DNA from: Pseudomonadota bacterium
Lineage (GTDB): Bacteria > Myxococcota > Bradymonadia > UBA4248
Direction of reading: 5' to 3'
Length of the DNA: 10,412 nt
Assembly: GCA_017613855.1 (NCBI GenBank)
Contig: JAGACY010000387.1
Span: 1-10,412 of the forward strand
How positions within the stretch are numbered: position 1 is the stretch's first letter; each line of letters starts with the position of its first letter. Both the position numbers and the translations under genes were made by a program. Shown here one piece after another: positions 464 through 10,189 of this stretch. Below the pieces are notes generated by a model. The model was not told the DNA's origin, searched no databases, and saw only the letters and a program-made list of their open reading frames with translations.

Positions 464-810
464 AGCCTTAATCTGGTTAATAAGTCATTGAAGCTATGCA
501 TAAAATGACTAAGTGAATGTATCATGCAGCGTTGAATAAAAATCGATACCCTCCGGGTGATGATATATTTGTCACATATAATCGTTGGAAAATCCATAGA
601 TATGAATGAATCGCCAAAGTCATAGTATTGACAACAGGGATTTGCATTGAAAAAAGTAAAGCCTGCAAATACAGGACTTTAACAGAATGCGTGACATTGT
701 GAATAACAAATTGTGCATCATTGCATCATCCTGGGACAGATGCTAAAAGTTCACGGGGCATGGATGATGTCCGAGCGTTTATTGATTCCTTCATTGATAT
801 AATGATCGCC
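464..810. other. Divergent intergenic region without a gene
   Basis: This is the gap between two divergent genes, so it must hold both promoters. A TTGACA box lies at 628-633 on the plus strand, but no good -10 follows at 16-18 nt, so no promoter is called. A short inverted pair TTTGCA/TGCAAA spans about 641-669, TGCATCAT is repeated in tandem at 714-729, and a small ACCC-TCC-GGGT stem lies at 548-558. No seven-base array or hairpin of the kinds seen in other gaps is visible here. Confidence 0.4.
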
Positions 811-2859
811 ATGAAAAATTATCTGCTTTCACTTGTGTTTGCGCTCATTCCTTTGGCGGCTCATGCCGAAGATGTGGTGCTTTACAGTTATGCCAAGACG
901 ATGCAGAAGCCCGCAGAGTGGGCTGTCATGCCGTTGATTGCCGATTTGCCCGACAGCCATGATGTAACGCTGTTCGAAGCGCTTAAACGCAAGAAATTGC
1001 CTACTTACGGTTCGACGAGCTTTTTGCCCGATAAAAAACAGGTTCTCATCGATGCCACCAAATGCGCATACGGTTCGATCATTTCTGCCGAAGTATCGTC
1101 AACTTTTAAGGCGCATGGCCATGGTATCCCCTCGTTCGTATGCGACAATCGTCCGGTTGCGGCCGCCGATGAAGCGCTCATGCACTACATGGCTATCGTG
1201 CCCATGTGGCAGGCATTGGGGGCTAAATCCGTGGATGAACCGGCACTCATCCAAATGGGGGATAGCTATCTGCTACCCAAAGCCTTTTATGAATTGCTCA
1301 AAAAACAGGATAAATCCTTGATAAAATCTATCGAAGCGGATTTTGACAATCCCAATATTTTTGTCAAAACCGGGGCTATGAAAGGCTATATCGCGCATAA
1401 ATTCCCGGGGGCAGAAAAACGCGTTGCCAAAGAACTGACTTCAAAGACGCCGGGGAATGTCAATGCCGCCATGACTGCACTTGCCGATACCCGCGATGCT
1501 GCGACGATTAGCCAGATGAAAGCTGTACTCAGTCAAACGGATGCGATGCAGGAAGTCTATGCACTGGCCATGCTCGATGCTGCAGACAGGACGCTCTATG
1601 ATGATGCATTGCTCATCTTGCTCAAGTCGAGCAATGATGCGAACTTTGAACGCGCACTGGCCGAAGTGGATAAATCTGGGAAATCCGGCGTAATGAGCGT
1701 GCATCTTGCAGAGATTTTGAATGCCTCGACGCCTGCTCATGGCGGAAAGATTGCACAGCGTCTTGTAAAACTGGATGAATCCGGGCTTTTGGGTTGGCTT
1801 GCACAGTGCAGCAACAGCGAAACGTCGCAGTCTGTTGCATCAACCGTACTCAATACATCCAATACCGCCGCGCTGCGGAATGCCGCATGGGCCGTACAGC
1901 TCGAGAATCCTTCGCCCGATAATGCTTTTGATGCATTGGATACACTCATGAAGCAGGGGGAGCTTTCGCCTGAGTATTGGCTTCGCGGTTTGAGAAGTCC
2001 GCATTTGGCGGTGCAATTTCTGGCCGCCGAACAAATCGAGCAGTCAAAAAGTGCACCGGCAGATCTGTCGGCCTTTGTTGAGAATGCTTCGAAAATTGAG
2101 AATTATTATCCCGTGATGACTGCCTATTTGGCCAATCATGCGGCTGTCGAATCGCTCAAATCTCAAAAGGATGCATTCGCCAAACGCAGTGTGGATATGG
2201 CCGCAGCGCTTGAAAAGGCTCCGACAGGCAAACCCAATGGCGCACAGTTGCTCGCGCTGGCTCAAAAAACGCCGGCAGATTCCGTTGCCCCGCTCACGTC
2301 GGAGGCCTACAATTCGCAGGCCGGGATGCGGCGCGATGTTGCTTATGCGACGCGCTGGATCGATACTTCGGGAGATGCACTTCGCGTGATTATGCTCAAA
2401 GATTCCGACGAAACTGTCGCCCAAACCTTGATTGCGCAGATATCTAAGCGCCCGCCCGATGAAATCTCACTCGCTCTGGTCAAGGATATCACCGCGCGCG
2501 CAGAGCGGTCGGCAAACCTCAAGATTGCTGCACTTCATGCATTGCCTTTTGTGATGAATGAAAAAACGATTCAGACGATTTCAACGTATGCTTCGAATGA
2601 AATGTTCGATAATGATATCAATGTGAAAATTGCGGCCATCCGTGCATTGAGCAATATTGCTCAAAAAACGAAGGATCCCGTCATTGCGGATAATGCCATT
2701 ACTTCATTGGCGCTTACTGCGCAGGATAAATCACCCTCTATTGTGCATCATACTTTAATGGCATTGGCAAAAACACATGCACCTGCAGCCCGTGAAATTA
2801 TCGAACGCGCGAAATCGACACATCCCGAAAGTGCAAAACGCGCATTGGAATTCTTTTAA
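811..2859 (+). CDS. Secreted/periplasmic HEAT-like helical repeat protein, function unknown
   Basis: Seen: 682 residues from the ATG at 811. The frame is open back to a TTG at 721, but only this start puts a signal peptide first (MKNYLLSLVFALIPLAAHA, cleavage before ED). No good Shine-Dalgarno precedes 811; the in-frame ATG at 802 is an alternative. Residues 20-165 form a mixed domain with two cysteines (85 and 111) that could form a disulfide. From about 205 to the end the chain is Ala/Leu-rich with paired amphipathic helices, clearest at 567-580 (NLKIAALHALPF), 604-617 (NVKIAAIRALSNIA) and 642-655, which resembles HEAT or PBS-lyase-type repeats. Known: such solenoids are usually binding scaffolds, and no catalytic motif is visible. 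Inferred: a periplasmic or cell-surface scaffold. It is the only clear plus-strand gene and has no operon partner here. Confidence 0.85.
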   Translation: MKNYLLSLVFALIPLAAHAEDVVLYSYAKTMQKPAEWAVMPLIADLPDSHDVTLFEALKRKKLPTYGSTSFLPDKKQVLIDATKCAYGSIISAEVSSTFKAHGHGIPSFVCDNRPVAAADEALMHYMAIVPMWQALGAKSVDEPALIQMGDSYLLPKAFYELLKKQDKSLIKSIEADFDNPNIFVKTGAMKGYIAHKFPGAEKRVAKELTSKTPGNVNAAMTALADTRDAATISQMKAVLSQTDAMQEVYALAMLDAADRTLYDDALLILLKSSNDANFERALAEVDKSGKSGVMSVHLAEILNASTPAHGGKIAQRLVKLDESGLLGWLAQCSNSETSQSVASTVLNTSNTAALRNAAWAVQLENPSPDNAFDALDTLMKQGELSPEYWLRGLRSPHLAVQFLAAEQIEQSKSAPADLSAFVENASKIENYYPVMTAYLANHAAVESLKSQKDAFAKRSVDMAAALEKAPTGKPNGAQLLALAQKTPADSVAPLTSEAYNSQAGMRRDVAYATRWIDTSGDALRVIMLKDSDETVAQTLIAQISKRPPDEISLALVKDITARAERSANLKIAALHALPFVMNEKTIQTISTYASNEMFDNDINVKIAAIRALSNIAQKTKDPVIADNAITSLALTAQDKSPSIVHHTLMALAKTHAPAAREIIERAKSTHPESAKRALEFF

Positions 2860-2993: not shown

Positions 2994-3179
2994 TATCATT
3001 AGGCTATGTTTAACCACTGTGGATATGCCAAATTCTTTAGGTTTCGGCTTTTCATTGCTTAGAGCTTTGAGCTTTGAGCTTTGAGTGGCTAATCCTTTCT
3101 CTAAGCTCTAAGCTCCAAACCAGAATTGCAATCTTTTGTGAACAAAATCTCCACGATCGTTAAACAGAGCCTATCATTA
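2994..3179. repeat. 8-bp target-site duplication TATCATTA around MITE copy 1
   Basis: TATCATTA is at 2994-3001 and again at 3172-3179, exactly abutting the two ends of the inverted-repeat element at 3002-3171. The match is 8 of 8 and stops at both sides (A before the left copy, T after the right copy). This is the expected footprint of a transposition event with an 8-bp staggered cut. Confidence 0.75.
3002..3171 (+). mobile_element. MITE-like non-autonomous element, copy 1 (170 bp)
   Basis: The left end starts GGCTATGTTTAAC and continues to TGGATAT; the right end read inward starts GGCTCTGTTTAAC and continues to TGGAGAT. The two ends match at 20 of 25 positions. The interior has no gene. It holds a heptamer array GAGCTTT repeated three times (3062-3085) facing an inverted array CTCTAAG repeated twice (3099-3115), which would fold with about one mismatch per seven bases. 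A perfect 8-bp duplication flanks the element. A second copy lies at 5679-5871 in the opposite orientation. With no transposase inside, it must have been moved in trans. Inferred class: MITE; parent IS family unknown. Confidence 0.75.
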
Positions 3180-3196
3180 TTATACTACTTTTATTT

Positions 3197-3229
3197 GGCT
3201 GGCTTTTTGCGTTCGCAAATACGCCAGCC
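3197..3229 (-). repeat. GTA-loop hairpin repeat H1
   Basis: Read on the minus strand: outer stem GGCTGGC/GCCAGCC, then GTA on the 5' side facing AA on the 3' side, then inner stem TTTGC/GCAAA with a GAAC loop. It shares this plan with H2-H5. It lies downstream of the membrane-protein gene at 3305, but no U-run follows, so it is not a typical intrinsic terminator. Confidence 0.7.
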
Positions 3230-3231
3230 TT

Positions 3232-3264
3232 GTCGGCGCTATCCCTTCGGGATACGCGGCCGAC
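3232..3264 (-). repeat. GTA-loop hairpin repeat H2
   Basis: Read on the minus strand: outer stem GTCGGC-CGC against GCG-CCGAC (one bulged C), internal loop GTA facing TA, inner stem TCCC/GGGA, loop GAA. It is two bases from H1 and in the same orientation, so the two form a pair. It is the first structure downstream of the stop at 3305 and could slow 3' exonucleases, but that is inference. Confidence 0.7.
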
Positions 3265-3304
3265 ATATTTTTATGGGGCGATGCAGACCGGAGTGTGTGG
3301 CTGA

Positions 3305-4687
3305 TTATTCCTGTTCAGCTTTTTCCTGGGGCTGCGGTGCAGCTGCTTTCTCGCGCTGTTTTGCAGCTTCCTCTTCGATCTTTTTGATTTCCTGGAATTT
3401 GACAGAAATCTTAATTGAATAGGAACACAGCTGGTGGCGATATTCCGGCATGTTGAGTTCGGGAGGAATCTCGGGGGCAGGAATCTGCAGTGCAGTGTTG
3501 ATATCGGGGACTTCACAGTGCCATTGGTGCGGTGCAATTTCGGTCACGTAATTCGGTGCATCGTTTGCTTCGAGTCGCAGACTGAGCAACTGTGTAATTT
3601 CGATAGGTTTGCCCTGGCCATAGACAGCAAATGTAAAAGGCTCATTCGGCTGCACTTTGACCTGAGCCATATTCCCGGATGCTTTGACCACCATCAGTGG
3701 CTCGCTCATAAAGAATACGCGGGTATCGGGCATGTCTGTTTCGATGGTGATGGCACCATACAAACCATAGGGATGTTCTGTCAGCGTTTTGAGCAGGGAT
3801 TTGGTGGCATCCGGCAACTCAGGTGCAATGATGGGATTGCCCGTGTCGAGTGTGGCTACATCAAAGCCATTGGCGGCCTGAGCCAAGAGGGGATTGCGCG
3901 AGAGAATGGATTTGAGTGAGGCACGCTGCTGATCTTCGGTAGGAACGAGCGATTTGACAGCTTCGGCATAGCGCTCGCGGAAAGCAATTTCGCGGACGAC
4001 CGTCCATTCGCAGCCGGATGTTTCGAGAATCGGCGGGAGCTGTTCACATCCTGCAATACGCGGAGACACATCGGGTTCGAGTACGATCTTTTTGAAGGCT
4101 TTCTCGAGTGGATTTTTGCCTGGTTTATTGGATGGGAACCAGTCGTAATAGGCAACCGTGCGGGAAAGTGGCTTAAAACCTTCGGCTGCGAAACTGAATT
4201 TTAAGATGGTATCTTCTTTGATAGGCAGGTTCTGAATCCATGTCGATTCTCTTGCCCTGAGTTCCGTGTAACTGCCATCTTTTGATCTGGCATAGAGCGG
4301 TTTATCATCCATTGCGATGGCAACCGCAGGCGGCATGGAGTCGAGGAAGGCGATATCCGCATATTCTATGCGGTTGCGGCGTGCTTCTTCTTCGGCAATT
4401 TTGCGGTCATGCTCGGCAATAAAACGGGCCTCTTCTTCTTTATCGAGGAGATATTCGAAACCGAACCATGCGGCAATGCTTGCGCCAACGACAGCCAGCG
4501 TAATGAACAATACGGCAAACTGACGAATGCCGGGTTTGCGTGCATCCTGTTCATACATGCCACGTTTTTCGGCAGGTTTGTTCAAACCAAAAGCTGCACG
4601 AATCGCCTCGTGGTCTGCCGCTGTTTTTTCGAGGCTAAAAACCTCATTATGATTGGTTTTTTGAGTTTGTTCTGTGTTTTCCGACAT
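3305..4687 (-). CDS. Bitopic membrane protein with PEGA-like segment, function unknown
   Basis: Seen: 460 residues. Residues 1-55 are polar and probably cytoplasmic. A single membrane helix spans about 56-80 (QFAVLFITLAVVGASIAAWF). A charged juxtamembrane helix at 82-106, rich in E/A/R, is a likely coiled coil. The C-terminal ~350 residues would be outside the membrane. The segment at 161-180, reading EGFKPLSRTV, resembles the repeating core of PEGA domains, but the match is weak. Four cysteines (214, 226, 391, 421) could form two disulfides. The tail (431-460) is Lys/Glu/Ala/Gln-rich and helical. A GAGG Shine-Dalgarno lies about 8 nt before the ATG. The MITE-like element and hairpins H1 and H2 lie downstream. 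It may act with the phosphatase gene upstream on the same strand, but 290 bp of repeat-rich DNA and its own promoter separate them. No function is assigned. Confidence 0.85.
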   Translation of the reverse strand: MSENTEQTQKTNHNEVFSLEKTAADHEAIRAAFGLNKPAEKRGMYEQDARKPGIRQFAVLFITLAVVGASIAAWFGFEYLLDKEEEARFIAEHDRKIAEEEARRNRIEYADIAFLDSMPPAVAIAMDDKPLYARSKDGSYTELRARESTWIQNLPIKEDTILKFSFAAEGFKPLSRTVAYYDWFPSNKPGKNPLEKAFKKIVLEPDVSPRIAGCEQLPPILETSGCEWTVVREIAFRERYAEAVKSLVPTEDQQRASLKSILSRNPLLAQAANGFDVATLDTGNPIIAPELPDATKSLLKTLTEHPYGLYGAITIETDMPDTRVFFMSEPLMVVKASGNMAQVKVQPNEPFTFAVYGQGKPIEITQLLSLRLEANDAPNYVTEIAPHQWHCEVPDINTALQIPAPEIPPELNMPEYRHQLCSYSIKISVKFQEIKKIEEEAAKQREKAAAPQPQEKAEQE

Positions 4688-4726
4688 GGGAGGATCCTCA
4701 AATCCATGAAGATAAAGACCATGCGT

Positions 4727-4755
4727 GTTCTATCTTTTTATGTCCGAATTGGCAA
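4727..4755 (-). promoter_or_regulatory. Candidate sigma70-type promoter for the membrane-protein gene
   Basis: On the minus strand, TTGCCA (4755-4750) is followed after exactly 17 nt by TAGAAC (4732-4727): 5 of 6 and 4 of 6 matches to consensus. Transcription would start near 4720, leaving a leader of about 30 nt before the ATG at 4687. Called from pattern only. Confidence 0.4.
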
Positions 4756-4807
4756 ACAGAATAGAGATAATAATGTATATGCAGCTAGGGCGCTGTCCAT
4801 AAGGTAC

Positions 4808-4955
4808 GTTATTCACAATGACGTATTCACAGACATAATGCGCAATGCGCAATGCGCAATGCGCAATTATTTGAGTATGCTCATGGGTATGGCTAAAGAA
4901 TCGTGGTTCTTGAACTTTAGAGGCTGTGAATAGTGAATAGTGAATAGTGAATAAC
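4808..4955. repeat. Inverted heptamer element (TATTCAC / ATGCGCA / GTGAATA)
   Basis: The outer ends are inverted copies, GTTATTCAC at 4808-4816 and GTGAATAAC at 4947-4955, and the inner pair TATTCACAG/CTGTGAATA also matches. The left side runs in a 7-bp register: TATTCAC at 4810 and 4824, then ATGCGCA repeated four times to about 4865. The right side is GTGAATA repeated four times at 4926-4953. About 60 bp of ordinary sequence separates the arms. No flanking duplication was found. It lies 22 bp past the end of the phosphatase gene. Confidence 0.7.
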
Positions 4956-4977
4956 TTAATTGGCCTGCAGGATGATA

Positions 4978-5619
4978 TCAATCTGTCTGGGGCTGAAGAT
5001 AAGTGCGTTTGAACCAATTGGTCAAAGCTTCGTCAATGAGGGCTGCCACAGATTGGTAGACTTCGGGGGCTTGTCCCATGGGATCTTCGATTGTATCTGT
5101 AGGTTCGTTCAGAAAAAGGCCGAGCAGGAGTACACGTTTTGATGCATCTGGGCTGATTTCGGCAATTCTTGCACTGTGCATGGGTTCCATTGCAAAAATG
5201 ATATCTGCAGAATCAATGAGTAATTTGGAGAGTGCAGAAGAACGATGGTCTTCGAGATCGACGCCATTTTCGCGGGCAGACTCTATCATCTTGGGGGCGG
5301 CTTTGCGGCCGACGAGGCGCAGTGTACCGGCGGATGCGATCTTGATGCTTCGGCCTTGCGAGAGTTGTTTTAATTTTGCGGCGGCATAGGCTGAACGGCA
5401 TATATTGCCACTGCAAACAAAGAGTATGTGACTTGGCTGTGATTTATCAACCTCATTCATATGATCTTCAACGTGGGGTTTTGGTTGAAGATTCTCTTGC
5501 TTTGGTTGAAGATTCTCTTGTTTTGATGGGCGATTCTTAATAATCTTCGGCACATCATCCATCGAAACAGGCTGATTAAAACCAAATAATCTGTCGCGAA
5601 TTTTATCGATGAAAGACAT
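4978..5619 (-). CDS. Low-molecular-weight protein tyrosine phosphatase with N-terminal extension
   Basis: Role: hydrolyses phosphotyrosine on proteins in the cytoplasm; bacterial members often reverse a BY-type tyrosine kinase that controls polysaccharide export. Seen: 213 residues. The active-site loop VCSGNICRS fits CX5R with nucleophile Cys69 and Arg75, and the acid loop has EDPMG with Asp179. SAGT (96-99), DLEDHRSSAL (121-130) and IFAMEPMHSA (141-150) are typical of the family. The catalytic domain starts near residue 64 and has normal length; family members usually begin only a few residues before this strand. The extra ~60 residues contain QENLQPK twice in a row, encoded by a 21-bp tandem duplication. 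No good Shine-Dalgarno precedes 5619; an ATG at 5460 (residue 54), preceded by GAAG, would give a family-like length and is a real alternative. UDP-glucose dehydrogenase further up the same strand fits a polysaccharide role, but no kinase is in view. Confidence 0.92.
   Translation of the reverse strand: MSFIDKIRDRLFGFNQPVSMDDVPKIIKNRPSKQENLQPKQENLQPKPHVEDHMNEVDKSQPSHILFVCSGNICRSAYAAAKLKQLSQGRSIKIASAGTLRLVGRKAAPKMIESARENGVDLEDHRSSALSKLLIDSADIIFAMEPMHSARIAEISPDASKRVLLLGLFLNEPTDTIEDPMGQAPEVYQSVAALIDEALTNWFKRTYLQPQTD
5480..5521 (-). repeat. 21-bp tandem duplication inside the phosphatase gene
   Basis: Two adjacent 21-bp units match at 20 of 21 bases and encode the heptapeptide repeat near residues 34-47. 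The frame is kept. It falls in the N-terminal extension, outside the catalytic domain. Confidence 0.85.
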
Positions 5620-5626
5620 ATTGGGA

Positions 5627-5661
5627 ATTCATAATTAATAATTCATAATTCATAATGATGA
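5627..5661. repeat. Heptamer tandem array, unit ATTCATA
   Basis: Five units in strict 7-bp register: ATTCATA at 5627, 5641 and 5648, ATTAATA at 5634 and ATGATGA at 5655. It starts 8 bp upstream of the annotated phosphatase start, so it would occupy that gene's leader or promoter region. Confidence 0.75.
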
Positions 5662-5907
5662 ATTGGGATGCAAAAATAAGCTCTGTTTAACGAGTGTGGA
5701 GATTTTGCAATTAGAATTCTCATTCGAGCTTATAGCTTGTAGCTTTTAGCTTGTAGAAGTTTCATTATTGTACAGGCAACAGAATGATTTCCTATGAAAT
5801 GAATTCTCAGCTATAAGCTATAAGCTATGAGCTACAAGCTGAATTCATATCCACGCTGGTTAAACATAGCCAAAAAAAATTTCATGTTTTTGTTTCGCAT
5901 CCCAATT
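5661..5907. repeat. 11-bp inverted repeat enclosing MITE copy 2
   Basis: AATTGGGATGC at 5661-5671 is the exact reverse complement of GCATCCCAATT at 5897-5907. The pair sits outside the MITE-like ends, 7 bp away on the left and 25 bp on the right. It could be the ends of an older element into which copy 2 inserted, or part of a longer hairpin. Chance is possible but an 11-bp exact match this close is notable. Confidence 0.5.
5679..5871 (-). mobile_element. MITE-like element, copy 2 (193 bp), inverted relative to copy 1
   Basis: The left end (AGCTCTGTTTAACG) matches copy 1's right end at 22 of 25 positions, and both continue TGGAGATTTTG. The right end read inward (GGCTATGTTTAACC) matches copy 1's left end at 23 of 25. 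So the element has two distinguishable ends and this copy is inverted. Inside are heptamer arms of AGCTTAT type (four units, 5727-5754) and AGCTATA type (four units, 5809-5836) that pair imperfectly. Flanks are A-rich and match at only 6 of 8 positions, so a target duplication is unclear. It fills most of the gap between the phosphatase and the secreted-protein gene. Confidence 0.7.
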
Positions 5908-5919
5908 ACACATTACAAA

Positions 5920-6999
5920 TTATTCAGGCATATCCGCGAGTTTGGGCAATTTCTTGGAAGGTTCTGGGCGGTAATCGAGGACAGAGAGACCTTCGCGAGC
6001 AGTTTTGGTGCGTTTGCGGAGCATCTTGTGCTGATCGGGAATGTTGGTGGTTTTGAGCCAGAGCTGGAAGTTTTCGCCGCTCTGCATATTATAATGATAG
6101 TCTTCTTCTTCAGCGAGTCCGAGTGAACGCATCTGACGGGTACGAAGTACGAGGGATTTATCTTCAAATGGCATGTTGACGATATTGCGTCGATATTCCG
6201 GTGTGTATTCGAAATAGCCTTCGGCGTTGGAAGGATAGAGAATCATCATCTTCATATTGGAATCGCGGAGGGCTTTTGCAATATCAATCATTGCCTTATT
6301 GCCGGTGAGATCACCGCAGATGGGGAAAACACGGTGATTTTCCCATAATTTTTTAATGCGTTTGTATTGGGTTTCGTCCGTTAAAAAGGTGGGGACGCTT
6401 GTAATTTCGGTTTCTTCAGATTTTGTGTATTTTTTGATGACGCGATTGAATCTGCCGTTGACTTCCTTAACGCCGTGTTTCCAGGCTTTAAAGGCATCTG
6501 CCGCTTTATCGGGAAAATACTTTTCGAGTGCAGCCTTCATGAGATCGGGGTTGTCGCTTTTCCAGTAGGAGCGGAATTCTTCAATATTATTGGCAGAAAG
6601 GAAAGCCGCGCCATAAGCGTAGTGCAGATTGGTGATCATGCGGTCAAAATCCATGGGGAGAATGAGCGAAGCATTGCTCCATCCGGCGATGAGATAGACC
6701 TGATCGGTGCCGACACCCGAAATGACGCCGCCGAGATCCTTGACATAAGGATACCAGACGTAGTGTGCATTTTCGTTGGAAACCCAGTAATGGGCATCCC
6801 GGACGAGTGCATCGGGATCGGGGTCGCGGCGGATATTTTCAAAACGCGTTTGAATCTCCTGTGGGAGCATTTTGGAAGGGTCATTGGCATCTGCACTGCT
6901 GGCTTGAGAAGTTTGTGAGGAAGAAGAATAATTCTGTGCAGAAGCCGTGACAGGCAGACAGAACATGAGTGCAGCAAGAATGATTGTAAATTTTTTCAT
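5920..6999 (-). CDS. Secreted protein resembling the LIC_10091-type family
   Basis: Seen: 359 residues from the ATG at 6999. The frame is open 24 bp further, but a perfect AGGAGGT lies 6 nt before this ATG and the signal peptide starts here (MKKFTIILAALMFCLPVTASA, cleavage before Q). A Ser/Gln-rich linker spans 22-40. The mature part has VSNENAHY (73-80), GGVISGVGTDQVYLIAG (90-106) followed by LPMDFDR (114-120), and later FPICGDLTGNKAM (225-237), ILYPSNAEGYF (253-263) and a downstream LVLRT (283-287). Known, from memory: similar GVGSDQ, GDLTG and SNAE-type motifs occur in uncharacterised proteins named after Leptospira LIC_10091, which look Rossmann-like. This family call is moderate. Inferred: exported, possibly a periplasmic enzyme of unknown substrate. 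It stands alone between long gaps. Confidence 0.88.
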   Translation of the reverse strand: MKKFTIILAALMFCLPVTASAQNYSSSSQTSQASSADANDPSKMLPQEIQTRFENIRRDPDPDALVRDAHYWVSNENAHYVWYPYVKDLGGVISGVGTDQVYLIAGWSNASLILPMDFDRMITNLHYAYGAAFLSANNIEEFRSYWKSDNPDLMKAALEKYFPDKAADAFKAWKHGVKEVNGRFNRVIKKYTKSEETEITSVPTFLTDETQYKRIKKLWENHRVFPICGDLTGNKAMIDIAKALRDSNMKMMILYPSNAEGYFEYTPEYRRNIVNMPFEDKSLVLRTRQMRSLGLAEEEDYHYNMQSGENFQLWLKTTNIPDQHKMLRKRTKTAREGLSVLDYRPEPSKKLPKLADMPE

Positions 7000-7005
7000 G
7001 GAATG

Positions 7006-7012
7006 ACCTCCT
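7006..7012 (-). promoter_or_regulatory. Strong Shine-Dalgarno AGGAGGT that fixes the start at 6999
   Basis: It matches the anti-SD in full, with 6 nt before the ATG at 6999. It overlaps the codons that a longer start at 7023 would use, so the shorter, signal-peptide-first form is preferred. Confidence 0.8.
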
Positions 7013-7036
7013 GGTAGATTCAAAGCCGGCCTTGTT

Positions 7037-7056
7037 GTGACCTGCGTGACATCATA
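7037..7056 (-). promoter_or_regulatory. Possible -10 box and direct repeat upstream of the secreted-protein gene
   Basis: TATGAT on the minus strand (7056-7051) matches a -10 at 5 of 6, but no acceptable -35 lies 16-18 nt upstream. Just downstream, GTCAC occurs twice 9 bp apart (7037-7041 and 7046-7050), about one helical turn, which could be an operator half-site pair. Weak. Confidence 0.25.
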
Positions 7057-7154
7057 AATTAAAATGGGAAAAAAAGGAAATTTGTAGGTTGTGGGATGTT
7101 GTTGCAGAGGTGCATCCCGAGGGGGATATGTCGCTTGTTACGGGCGAATTTCAA

Positions 7155-7172
7155 GCAATTTTGGGAAATTGC
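7155..7172. other. Short perfect stem-loop GCAATTT-TGGG-AAATTGC
   Basis: A 7-bp perfect stem with a 4-nt loop in the 530-bp non-coding gap 7024-7553, followed on the plus strand by CTTTTCCT. It could be a weak terminator or chance. It does not have the GTA internal loop of H3-H5. No gene was found in this gap. Confidence 0.35.
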
Positions 7173-7204
7173 CTTTTCCTGAGAGGGCACACAATGCAAA
7201 AAAA

Positions 7205-7241
7205 GTGCCGCGTATTTTTTGCAAAGCAAAAAAAGCGGCAC
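7205..7241 (+). repeat. GTA-loop hairpin repeat H3
   Basis: Outer stem GTGCCGC/GCGGCAC, internal loop GTA facing one A, inner stem TTTTTTGC/GCAAAAAA, loop AAA. It is the longest of the family and would be very stable. A preceding GCAAAAAA at about 7197 could compete for the T-run and give an alternative fold. Confidence 0.75.
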
Positions 7242-7249
7242 AGCGATGG

Positions 7250-7273
7250 GCGTATCGGCCGCAGGCCGATAGC
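7250..7273 (+). repeat. GTA-loop hairpin repeat H4
   Basis: GC, then GTA facing TA, inner stem TCGGCC/GGCCGA, loop GCA, then GC. The core TATCGGCC/GGCCGATA is a perfect 8-bp inverted repeat. The outer stem seen in the other copies is reduced to the GC pair. It lies 8 bp past H3 in the same orientation. Confidence 0.7.
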
Positions 7274-7281
7274 CAGAGCGT

Positions 7282-7315
7282 CTGCGGCGTATCGGCTGTA
7301 AGCCGAAAGCTGCAG
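7282..7315 (+). repeat. GTA-loop hairpin repeat H5
   Basis: Outer stem CTGCGGC/GCTGCAG with one G-T wobble, internal loop GTA facing AA, inner stem TCGGCT/AGCCGA, loop GTA. Compared with H4 the inner stem has C to T on one side and G to A on the other, keeping the pair. Confidence 0.7.
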
Positions 7316-7387
7316 GAACAACAGGATTACGTAACTATTCAGCCACTATGCTCGCTTTTCATTCGAAGGCCCAACTCATCCATTAAT

Positions 7388-7497
7388 GCATAATGAATAA
7401 TGATGAATGCATAATGAAATGCTGCAGGAGAATTTGGATGATTCCTTTGGTTTTTCAAAAACATTCAGCATTATGAATTCAGCATTATGAATTAAGG
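7388..7497. repeat. Two facing heptamer arrays, GCATAAT and TTCAGCA/TTATGAA
   Basis: The left arm 7388-7422 has five 7-bp units: GCATAAT at 7388 and 7409, with GAATAAT, GATGAAT and GAAATGC. The right arm 7464-7491 alternates TTCAGCA and TTATGAA twice (14-bp unit). The reverse complement of the right arm resembles the left arm (shared CATAATG and GAAT words), so the arms are roughly inverted around a 41-bp spacer. A small GTTTTT-C-AAAAAC palindrome lies in the spacer at 7450-7462. It is downstream of the ugd stop. Confidence 0.7.
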
Positions 7498-7553
7498 ATT
7501 TTTCTTACCCTTTGGAAATCTGGCAAATAACAGAGAGCTGAACAGTTACAGGA

Positions 7554-8906
7554 TTACATGCCAATGTAAACGAAATCCTTGACTTTATCGAGGTCGTTGC
7601 GCAGGAGGTTGCGCGCGTCGAACAGGAATGGTGTTTTGACGGCTTTTGCCATGTCTTCCCAGTCGATGTTTTTGTAATCGGCCCAGTCGGTCGTGATGAT
7701 GATGGCATCGGCATTTTGTGCGGCTTCGATGGGATCGGTGCAGAAGATGAAGCCTTCATTTTTATAGATGACGCGGGCGTTATCGAGACCCTGCGGATCG
7801 TGCACCGTGACGATGGCCTGGCGTCGAACGAGTTCTTTGGCAATATCGACGGAAGGGCTGTTGCGGACGTCGTCGGTTCTGGGTTTGAAGGAGAGGCCGA
7901 GAATTGCGATGCGTCTGCCGGGCAGGATGTGCAGTTTGTCGATAACTTTTTGAATGAGGCGTGTTTTTTGGCGTTCATTGACATCGACAGCGGCTTTTAC
8001 GATTGGCATTTCATAATCGTAATCCTTTGCCATGCTTAAGAGTGCGAGCGAATCTTTGGGGAAGCAACTGCCGCCCCAGCCGAGGCCGGATTTGAGAAAA
8101 TAAGGAGCGATGCGCTTATCCATGCCCATGCCGCGGCTGATGTCTTCCATGTTGCCGCCGAGTTTTTCGACGAGACCGGCGATTTCATTGGCGTAGCTGA
8201 TTTTGAGGGCCAGGAAAACATTGGATGCGTATTTGATCATCTCTGCTGAGATGGCATCGGTGTGGATGCATTGCGTTTTGGGGCGCGGATTGGGCATTTC
8301 GACAAATGTGGGCGGCTCGAAGGACTGGTCAATGATGGGGGCAAACAGGGTCGTGAGCATTTGGTAGGCTTTGTCATCCTCGGTTCCGAAGACGAAACGA
8401 TCGGGGTAGAACGTGTCGGAGAGTGCCATGCCTTCGCGTAGGAATTCTGGGTTGGACGAGAAGTGGAGCAGTGCGTCGGAACCGCATCGCATGGCGACTC
8501 TGTCGCGGATTTGGCGTTCGATCATGCTGTTGACGCCGACGGGAACGGTCGATTTGACGACGATGGTGACATCATGGATGGGCATGAGTGAGTTGGCGAT
8601 ATCTTCGGCGGCGCTCATGACATAGGAGAGGTTGGCATGCCCGTTGGGAAGTGAGGGGGTTCCGACGGCGATGAAGATGACATCAGCAGTATTGACGCAG
8701 TCTTCGAGGCATGTGGTGAAAGTGAGATCCATCTTTTGGGAGAGGAGTTCATCCAGACCAGCTTCGGATATCGGTGCCTTGTGGGCTTTGAGCATGTTTA
8801 TTTTGCGTTCGTCAATATCGACGCCACAGACGGAGTGTCCTATGTAAGCGAGTGCTGCTGCAGTGTTGATACCAACATAACCTGTTCCGATGCATACGAC
8901 GTTCAT
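7554..8906 (-). CDS. ugd: UDP-glucose 6-dehydrogenase
   Basis: Role: oxidises UDP-glucose to UDP-glucuronate in two NAD+-dependent steps in the cytoplasm, supplying acidic sugar for surface polysaccharides. Seen: 450 residues, the normal length. The NAD-binding GTGYVG is at 7-12 with Asp30 ending the second strand; STVPVG is at 119-124, NPEFLREG at 152-159, Lys225 lies in AEMIKYASN, and the catalytic Cys281 is in GWGGSCFPKD. GLSFKPRTDDVRNSP (337-351) marks the C-terminal domain. All key residues are present. Related GDP-mannose and UDP-ManNAc dehydrogenases share this fold, but the spacing and motifs fit Ugd best. An AAAGGA Shine-Dalgarno lies about 8 nt before the ATG. The gene follows the TldD/PmbA-like gene by 62 nt on the same strand, so co-transcription is likely; no promoter was evident in that gap. 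Confidence 0.95.
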   Translation of the reverse strand: MNVVCIGTGYVGINTAAALAYIGHSVCGVDIDERKINMLKAHKAPISEAGLDELLSQKMDLTFTTCLEDCVNTADVIFIAVGTPSLPNGHANLSYVMSAAEDIANSLMPIHDVTIVVKSTVPVGVNSMIERQIRDRVAMRCGSDALLHFSSNPEFLREGMALSDTFYPDRFVFGTEDDKAYQMLTTLFAPIIDQSFEPPTFVEMPNPRPKTQCIHTDAISAEMIKYASNVFLALKISYANEIAGLVEKLGGNMEDISRGMGMDKRIAPYFLKSGLGWGGSCFPKDSLALLSMAKDYDYEMPIVKAAVDVNERQKTRLIQKVIDKLHILPGRRIAILGLSFKPRTDDVRNSPSVDIAKELVRRQAIVTVHDPQGLDNARVIYKNEGFIFCTDPIEAAQNADAIIITTDWADYKNIDWEDMAKAVKTPFLFDARNLLRNDLDKVKDFVYIGM

Positions 8907-8968: not shown

Positions 8969-10189
8969 CTATATTTTCCCGAGTGGGATTGTTTGCGGCA
9001 GATAGCAATCGGGGGCGGAAAAATCGGCCATGCCATGGTGACATTTGAGGCAGACTTTTGAAATGAGATTGGTCGTTGAATGAATGTTTTGCCAGATGTT
9101 TTTGAGATCAAATCTGAGTGTGACTGGTTTGAAATACCGTAGGATTTTGGCATTTTCGATTTCACAGGCGATTTTGAAGTGAACATCGAGCAAAGTGTTG
9201 TTTCTTCTGACCCAGAGAGAGGGGGCATCGACGAAGAGTGTATGGCTGGGTAGTGCTTCGAATAATTCCTGCTTTGAATGCGTGGTGGAATCCGAAGGTA
9301 AAAGCGCATGGATCGGGCAATTGGCAGAATTGGGAGTGGGTTGGCACTGAGCCATATCCATGATGAGTTTGCCGGAGGATGCCATGTCGACCGAGAGATG
9401 TGCGGCTTCATGTCCTAAGATGGCCATACCCCATCCGGAGATGACCAGATTGGGCATCGGGCTGACATATTCGAGTTTGGCGCATACGGAATTGTAGAAT
9501 CCATCGGCGATTTCGAGCATGGACGCCTGCAGTTGGCCGGGATTTGCCAGTGGGTTGTTCGAATCGAGAGGATTAAAGCGGCACAACGGAAGACTGAGTG
9601 TATAAGTATCGTCGATATGCTGAAGTTTTAATTGGGATTTGATGGATGTTTCGACGAAAGTATGCAATGAGATGTTCTGTTGATAAAACAGTGCTTCATC
9701 AATGGCTTTTGTCGTTTGTTCCATCTGAATGGATAGATTATTTGAAATTTCATTCAGATTTGGCGGCTCGAATGCGGGGAAGTTCCAGAAATCCGATTGC
9801 AGACAATTGGCATGGTAGCAGTCGTCTGTACAAGCCAGAGGATCGCATGCTTCCTCGGGATATTGAATAGAGGGCATTTGATTGAAGGCTTGAACTGTCG
9901 ATTGGATATCGGAGGGATTGGGCTGTCCCCATGCATTTGCGATTTTTGCTGCCTGGCAAAGATTCTTGGTGATCTGCAGCAAAGCAGTGCGATCCGGGCA
10001 GGCGAACCGGTTTGTAAAAAAGGCAGAAGCAGATCCTTTTTGGAATTGGACAGCTAATTTGATCTCATCGACAGACTTAACATTCCCGGAATTACTTTTT
10101 TCGAGGCTATGTCTGTAGACGAGAGCAGCGTCATCGGCTCCGCATTTTTGAGCATGATTCACGAGCTCTTTGTAAAGAGCAATATCCAT
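8969..10189 (-). CDS. Divergent TldD/PmbA-family protein with HEAAH motif
   Basis: Seen: 406 residues, shorter than typical TldD/PmbA proteins (about 450-480). The N-terminus (GADDAALVYRHS at 17-28, DEIKLAVQFQKGSASAFFTN at 41-60) has the family's opening pattern. Residues 246-275 (NLVISGWGMAILGHEAAHLS and on) match the TldD metal site region, but with HEAAH at 260-264, i.e. HExxH, where TldD has HExxxH. The end (SKVCLKCHHG near 378-386) sits where TldD has its conserved C-terminal GxCGKxGQ. Known: TldD/TldE are zinc-metalloprotease-like proteins that trim peptides. Inferred: a divergent member, possibly peptidase or inactive. No signal peptide is seen, so it is probably cytoplasmic. The middle (108-130) is Cys-rich. 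A GAGGAT Shine-Dalgarno is present. It follows tRNA-Arg by 26 nt and precedes ugd. Confidence 0.85.
   Translation of the reverse strand: MDIALYKELVNHAQKCGADDAALVYRHSLEKSNSGNVKSVDEIKLAVQFQKGSASAFFTNRFACPDRTALLQITKNLCQAAKIANAWGQPNPSDIQSTVQAFNQMPSIQYPEEACDPLACTDDCYHANCLQSDFWNFPAFEPPNLNEISNNLSIQMEQTTKAIDEALFYQQNISLHTFVETSIKSQLKLQHIDDTYTLSLPLCRFNPLDSNNPLANPGQLQASMLEIADGFYNSVCAKLEYVSPMPNLVISGWGMAILGHEAAHLSVDMASSGKLIMDMAQCQPTPNSANCPIHALLPSDSTTHSKQELFEALPSHTLFVDAPSLWVRRNNTLLDVHFKIACEIENAKILRYFKPVTLRFDLKNIWQNIHSTTNLISKVCLKCHHGMADFSAPDCYLPQTIPLGKI

Follow-up and report, generated by a model that had tools for sequence, protein, structure and literature searches.

The window, a 10,412-nucleotide stretch of contig JAGACY010000387.1, contains five hairpins belonging to a large family that is, on balance, best regarded as lineage-specific, REP-like (repetitive extragenic palindromic), non-autonomous DNA elements. 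The shared unit is a split core with a single bulged G, 5'-C[G]TAT...ATAG-3', flanked by two stems whose sequences vary freely. The family is large in one gut-bacterial lineage, probably with hundreds to more than 1,000 copies per genome.

A bulged G between freely varying stems

Hairpin searches covered 1,135,105 bases from seven related metagenome-assembled genomes (MAGs; G001 to G007). A motif-blind search of this sample, in which a hairpin needed only a single bulged base on its 5' arm, gave 122 single-bulge hairpins, and the core was exactly C[G]TAT in 108 of them. The same search of two class members outside the MAG family (200 kb each) gave none and one, the latter with another core. 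Opposite ATA, the T and A of GTA are paired and the G alone is bulged. This ATAG form accounts for 98 of 120 perfectly paired copies (46/55 in G002, 16/18 in G006, 14/22 in G004, 15/17 in G001, 1/1 in G003 and 6/7 in G005). Window hairpins H1 and H5 have the minority A-A form, while the register of H3 is ambiguous because of an A run. A sequence-only reading of the window had described an invariant GTA internal loop. In most copies GTA forms no internal loop, and an invariant bulged G is the better description; the placing of GTAT inside the helix was correct. That an unpaired G is fixed while nearly all of the stem is free suggests that folded DNA may be read by its shape.

Covariation of the stems was confirmed by a test free of selection, in which all CGTAT-N7..18-ATAG sites were taken whatever their pairing (n = 324). 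With their own arms, 170 sites formed at least five of six outer-stem pairs, compared with a mean of 13.5 when arms were cross-paired (maximum 21, 200 trials). At least three inner-stem pairs were formed by 220 sites, compared with a cross-paired mean of 15.8 (maximum 28). The 125 sites with both stems so paired contain 84 distinct outer 6-mers and 106 distinct inner sequences, and 123 of the 125 strict copies are distinct sequences. In a seven-copy set, the covariation score was reached by 0 of 500 shuffles. Covariation in a 68-copy set was 0.510, compared with 0.116 when shuffled and at most 0.071 when slid, in an alignment that was fitted to the model and in which at least three rows count a hairpin again by its opposite strand. 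The own-partner test is stronger than these model-based counts, and both agree. A covariance-model search, named beforehand as the test on which the proposed family should stand or fall, found further copies, and these show paired changes.

Copy number, distribution and the window

When the core was held constant and the counted stems could contain as many as two mismatches, 252 copies were found in the 1.135 Mb. Eight decoy cores gave 2 to 7 matches each and one gave 42, read as the same hairpins in a shifted register. G002 had 114 copies (387 kb sampled), G006 45 (200 kb), G001 44 (233 kb), G004 40 (194 kb) and G005 8 (57 kb), which extrapolate to ~1,270, ~720, ~870, ~910 and ~580 per genome, respectively; as the 1.135 Mb consists of contigs with an earlier model match or another match, these densities and extrapolations are somewhat too high. 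The samples of G003 (1 copy in 53 kb) and G007 (0 in 11 kb) are too small for scaling, and the copies in G003 are mostly long-tipped members of the composite subfamily described below.

Every one of the eight MAG-family genomes was matched by the covariance model (R1; E up to 0.001), with 65 to 132 matches apiece (at most 150 candidate stretches scored per genome). The same eight were matched among 57 genomes of the class at 1e-4 and among 282 genomes of a phylum sample at 1e-6, the other 274 having no match at 1e-6; these searches used stricter filters and scored fewer candidates per genome (maximum 121 and 24, respectively). Within the phylum sample, hairpins were matched only in the MAG family of UBA4248. 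Among the papers listed by literature searches, no title or abstract opening describes such hairpins or repeats of this lineage.

Gene calls from a simple codon-usage caller made for this analysis placed 16 of the 252 copies inside predicted genes, 16 at stretch ends and 220 between genes, so that 220 of the 236 with both neighbours known are intergenic. Codirectional gaps hold 141 of the intergenic copies, convergent gaps 48 and divergent gaps 31. The hairpins are thus high-copy intergenic palindromes, as REPs are. The REP-like character proposed from the sequence is supported, as copies are dispersed, many, mostly intergenic and nearer to gene 3' ends.

All five hairpins proposed for the window (Table 1) are real folds. 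On the GTA strand, H1 to H5 have folding z scores of -5.1, -5.0, -5.0, -3.0 and -4.2, with 0 of 200 shuffles as good for each. The opposite strands fold well too, and the shuffle test alone cannot separate the strands. With filters off, the covariance model, whose training set included H1, H4 and H5 and left H2 and H3 outside, matches all five (E 2.2e-10 to 0.004). For hairpins of such shape GTA tops all 64 trinucleotides, with three in the window and two each in the related loci L001 and L002, at a strict cut that covers three of the five window hairpins. Up to an E value of 1, no Rfam 15 family matched the window hairpins. One correction to the sequence-only reading is that the outer stem of H4 next to the core has only 3 bp.

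Table 1. Hairpins, genes and homopolymer runs of the window
Feature	Position	Strand	Description
Gene	721-2859	+	
H1	3197..3229	-	outer GGCTGGC/GCCAGCC, GTA, inner TTTGC/GCAAA, 3' side AA
H2	3232..3265	-	outer TGTCGGC..GC/GC..GCCGACA, core C[G]TAT/ATAG, inner CCC/GGG
T run	3268..3272	+	on the 3' side of H1 and H2 when the plus strand is read, downstream of gene 721-2859 on that strand
Gene	3305-4687	-	
Low-molecular-weight phosphatase gene	4978-5619	-	
DUF7790 gene	5920-7023	-	
A run	7198..7204	+	borders the H3-H5 array on its 5' side; as a minus-strand T run, it follows that array and lies downstream of the gene for UDP-glucose dehydrogenase
H3	7205..7241	+	outer GTGCCGC/GCGGCAC, GTA, inner stem long, A/T
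H4	7249..7274	+	outer stem 3 bp, core C[G]TAT/ATAG, inner TCGGCC/GGCCGA, loop GCA
H5	7281..7316	+	outer TCTGCGGC/GCTGCAGG, GTA, inner TCGGCT/AGCCGA, 3' side AA
UDP-glucose dehydrogenase gene	7554-8906	-	
Gene	8969-10189	-	

The window also has two tRNAs. Its UDP-glucose dehydrogenase shows 97% identity to the counterpart in MAG Myxococcales bacterium UBA4248 (L001, G001) and 72% to that in MAG RGIG4413 from roe deer omasum (L002, G002). A sequence of ~190 nt that resembles a miniature inverted-repeat transposable element is present in two inverted copies (2995-3182 and 5668-5882), whose terminal inverted repeats (~25 nt, RGCTMTGTTTAAC..GTGGA) are imperfect and whose interiors are dissimilar and microsatellite-like; L093, L102, L103 and L107 also have the end motif. 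Gaps between the window genes hold many short AT-rich or GCGCAAT tandem repeats (about 4838-4867, 4927-4953, 5626-5664 and 7385-7500), and the one near 4926-4954 is present in L001 too.

Folded strand, arrays and probable mobility

Loops and mismatches differ between the strands. Triloops are present in 114 of 196 distinct copies and are closed by C-G in 107 of these. On the GTA strand, 55 are of GNA type and 5 of the complementary TNC type (p 1e-11); C(GNA)G loops are unusually stable in DNA. Internal mismatches of the outer stem (n = 47, from a set without duplicates, 15 composites and copies close to the end of a stretch) comprise 24 A-G, 8 G-G, 5 G-T, 5 A-C, 3 T-T, 1 C-C and 1 C-T, giving 32 purine-purine mismatches (A-G and G-G) compared with 2 of C-T and C-C. 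If the strands were equivalent, A-G should equal C-T and G-G should equal C-C, so the asymmetry marks the GTA strand. G-T is no more frequent than A-C, although RNA would favour it. In codirectional gaps, 63 copies are sense and 78 antisense to the genes (p 0.24), revealing no transcriptional bias. The asymmetry of loops and mismatches and the lack of a G-T excess, together with this random gene orientation, point to a DNA hairpin on the GTA strand. The earlier suggestion of selection or copying at the single-strand level gains support from the covarying arms and from the strand-asymmetric loops and mismatches.

Copies often lie in arrays with a polarity of their own. Neighbours less than 150 nt apart are head-to-tail in 78 cases and inverted in 10, which is not the alternating or inverted arrangement of bacterial interspersed mosaic elements (BIMEs) or of REPINs (REP doublets forming hairpins). 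The period is 28-41 nt in 65 of the 78 head-to-tail pairs. Of 68 head-to-tail pairs, 13% have the same inner hairpin, compared with 0.6% of 20,000 pairs drawn at random within a genome, whereas the similarity of outer stems barely exceeds the random level (5' arm 0.45 compared with 0.42).

A composite subfamily comprises 33 sampled copies that sit in a larger frame, GGGGGTAGCGGC-[G]TAT-tip-ATA-GCCGC..AGGGGG..CCCCC, in which two GGGGG stretches can compete for the single CCCCC. Of 26 composites in codirectional gaps, 14 are sense and 12 antisense. The frame is near-identical within one genome while the tip is variable, spanning 9 to 34 bases in G002 and, in long palindromes, reaching some 45 bases or more in G003. 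From this constancy of frame and variability of tip, composite tips are apparently rewritten with pairing kept. In the composite at 4776-4882 (minus strand) of L117, the tip palindrome is doubled on the 5' arm alone, possibly a snapshot of tip rewriting.

A search of a viral collection with the composite pattern matched one contig, a bacteriophage. In this phage the sheath-initiator and baseplate J genes (Pfam) are 102 nt apart and the composite takes up the space between them, whereas the corresponding gap in a homologous G002 prophage is only 8 nt, and this difference suggests that the hairpin family is probably mobile. Three more hairpins of the bulged-G type were present in the 40 kb of the phage contig that was read. 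Two scans of viral contigs yielded the phage itself and one weak relative, leaving the G002 prophage as the sole comparison.

In the host, turnover is slow, since L001 has counterparts of H1 and H3-H5 and a probable one of H2, in surrounding intergenic DNA much of which is unalignable. H3 differs from its counterpart solely by one A in the A run, and H4 mainly in the loop. The H1 counterpart still forms the hairpin but has GCA in place of GTA and lacks one inner pair. In the counterpart of H5, a compensatory change gives TCGGCC/GGCCGA, GCA replaces GTA and the outer stem is weakened. The probable counterpart of H2 lies 281 nt away from the H1 counterpart; it folds too, but its outer stem is altered and ATA replaces GTA.

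Competing explanations and known systems

The hairpin with GTA(G) resembles REPs, and the copies could be classical REPs moved by a Y1 transposase (RAYT or IS200-like, for example subclass 1.2), which two MAGs lack through incompleteness or recent loss. PF01797 was found in six of the eight family genomes. Composites have GTAG at the foot (GGGGGTAGCGGC), and GT[AG]G lies near the 5' foot of 17 of 152 copies (2.9% expected). The other 135, however, are without it. Furthermore, PF01797 was missing from the matches of two hairpin-rich genomes, G005 (120 model matches) and G006 (132), which may be incomplete, and is present in 28 of 49 other class genomes without hairpins. The Y1 genes that were read are of more than one type, and 14 Y1 loci (39,346 bases in total; two pairs share 994 and 120 bases) hold 5 hairpins; the densities of five genome samples predict 3.0 to 6.7, and that of the small G003 sample predicts 0. 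It is therefore unlikely that a Y1 transposase moves these elements. The RAYT link suggested in the sequence-only reading fails, and RAYT was rejected as a partner given that two hairpin-rich genomes gave no PF01797 match, that Y1 genes are not clearly more frequent in the family than in the rest of the class, the lack of a hairpin excess around Y1 genes and an L006 gene with different hairpins of its own. No associated RAYT gene flanked by the hairpins was found, with the caveat that the MAGs may be incomplete.

By comparison of sequences by eye with the motif in Table 1 of PMC6006769, the Y1 genes of L006, L007, L008 and L069 are likely to be IS200/IS605 subclass 1.2 (Y---Q--HH). The genes of L006, L007 and L069 adjoin type I restriction-modification genes (Pfam Methylase_S, N6_Mtase and EcoEI_R_C), and that of L006 is flanked by hairpins CCCCCGGTAG...CAACCGGGGG, unlike the bulged-G family. 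In L010 and L011, a Y1 domain of the NHVH/YIDNNP type lies in frame within MmeI-type restriction genes, with MmeI domains on both sides in L010. These two loci also encode repeated SARAGRP...GDAGVSPA or GYACVSPAKD peptides, apparently translated palindromic repeats.

Slightly less probable again is that the hairpins are terminators or mRNA 3'-end structures under RNA selection, with the core as a protein or polymerase signal. The upstream stop codon is the nearer gene end for 97 of the 141 copies in codirectional gaps. AAAA is present at the 5' edge of 48 of 152 first-in-array copies, and in codirectional gaps the A run accompanies 20 of the 46 first-in-array copies that are antisense and 3 of the 38 that are sense (p 4e-4). 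Such antisense copies would read as a hairpin plus U tract in the transcript of the upstream gene, a terminator-like layout that both window arrays have. However, a hairpin plus U tract is possible for the 48 copies solely on the strand opposite GTA, TTTT being at the 3' edge of 0 of 152. Moreover, 63 of the 141 copies face the other way, equal numbers of G-T and A-C are unlike RNA helices, the loop and mismatch asymmetry marks the GTA strand rather than the terminating one, and terminators require no bulged base. The A runs may mean either that the element inserts 3' of A runs, in many cases presumably the complement of terminator U tracts near gene ends, or that some copies were taken over as terminators. 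The first is favoured because the mirror arrangement is absent. Some copies, including both window arrays, could nevertheless act as terminators.

Less probable still is that the hairpins are binding sites of a nucleoid or supercoiling protein (as cruciform or bent DNA) multiplied by ordinary duplication. Their mostly intergenic positions near gene ends in both orientations recall Escherichia coli BIMEs, bound by IHF and gyrase (PMC2817692), but the free stems with an invariant bulge, the head-to-tail polarity and the A-run polarity are left unexplained.

A lineage-specific family of REP-like, non-autonomous DNA elements thus remains the preferred explanation, although several points weigh against it. 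No partner enzyme was found. When 650 predicted proteins were clustered (63 of them near a composite), each of the 25 largest clusters had at most one near-composite member, so that none of these recurs beside composites. Integron integrase (TIGR02249) was over cut-off in none of the eight genomes, with weaker matches in seven of these and in all 14 control genomes. Orientation relative to the GC skew of the 20-kb stretch was 133 to 119, revealing no lagging-strand bias in a test weakened by short contigs. The small samples of G003 and G007 yielded just 1 and 0 short copies. The preference for DNA over RNA derives from the statistics of 47 mismatches and 196 loops. Insertion in the phage is deduced from two diverged relatives, the neighbouring protein being 63% identical between phage and prophage, and no insertion, hence no recent one in a host, is seen between the window and L001.

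The element may act when the GTA strand is single-stranded, during replication, repair or in phage DNA, and folded. A strand-transfer enzyme would then recognize the bulged G with its neighbouring TAT/ATA, not the stems, and would copy or move the element, preferentially to positions 3' of A tracts. As a secondary effect, copies at A tracts resemble intrinsic terminators on the other strand and may serve as such. More tentatively, and at well below even confidence, this could be a mobile single-stranded DNA family with a near-purely structural signal: a non-Y1 strand-transfer enzyme would read the bulged G by TAT/ATA, stems and tip would be rewritable, and one element would exist as several hundred to more than 1,000 distinct sequences per genome and would be carried between hosts by phages.

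Free stems around a near-invariant single bulged base provide a natural separation of structure from sequence recognition, in very many copies per genome. The hairpin copies form a ready-made library with which a new enzyme that reads hairpins could be sought. Repeat finders that rely on conserved sequence would tend to miss such families, as almost all strict copies are distinct.

Among known systems, integron attC sites are alike in their folded single strand, unpaired bases and freely variable tip (the variable terminal structure of attC). They differ in that no integrase is over cut-off in the family genomes, the copies here do not form cassette arrays and the core is different. On the attC-type folded strand, unpaired flipped-out bases are contacted by the recombinase (PMC8266576). 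CGTC-tagged REPs without a dedicated transposase are also REP-like with no assigned enzyme, but their tag is at the hairpin end and their families are told apart by stem and loop sequence (PMC3733652). For IS200/IS605 Y1 subclass 1.2, no REP is reported in the table of PMC6006769, and the L006 gene here has CCCCCGGTAG... hairpins.

REPs are defined (PMC3686654, PMC6006769) as high-copy intergenic palindromes with a GT[AG]G 5' foot and an associated, flanked RAYT gene. Those with RAYT group 2 (subclass 2.2) of the E. coli type are among the closest known systems, being likewise dispersed high-copy intergenic hairpins that are strand-specific and have a mid-stem irregularity; for E. coli REP and TnpA-REP, the irregularity is needed and the upper stem sequence is not (PMC8266576). 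Here, unlike in E. coli-type REPs, most copies are without the GTAG foot, a single-G bulge lies in a fixed core, stems are unshared between most copies, arrays are head-to-tail rather than in inverted pairs, and no RAYT association was found. While it departs from the definition in the GTAG foot (composites excepted) and in RAYT, the family works like a REP with an internal irregularity.

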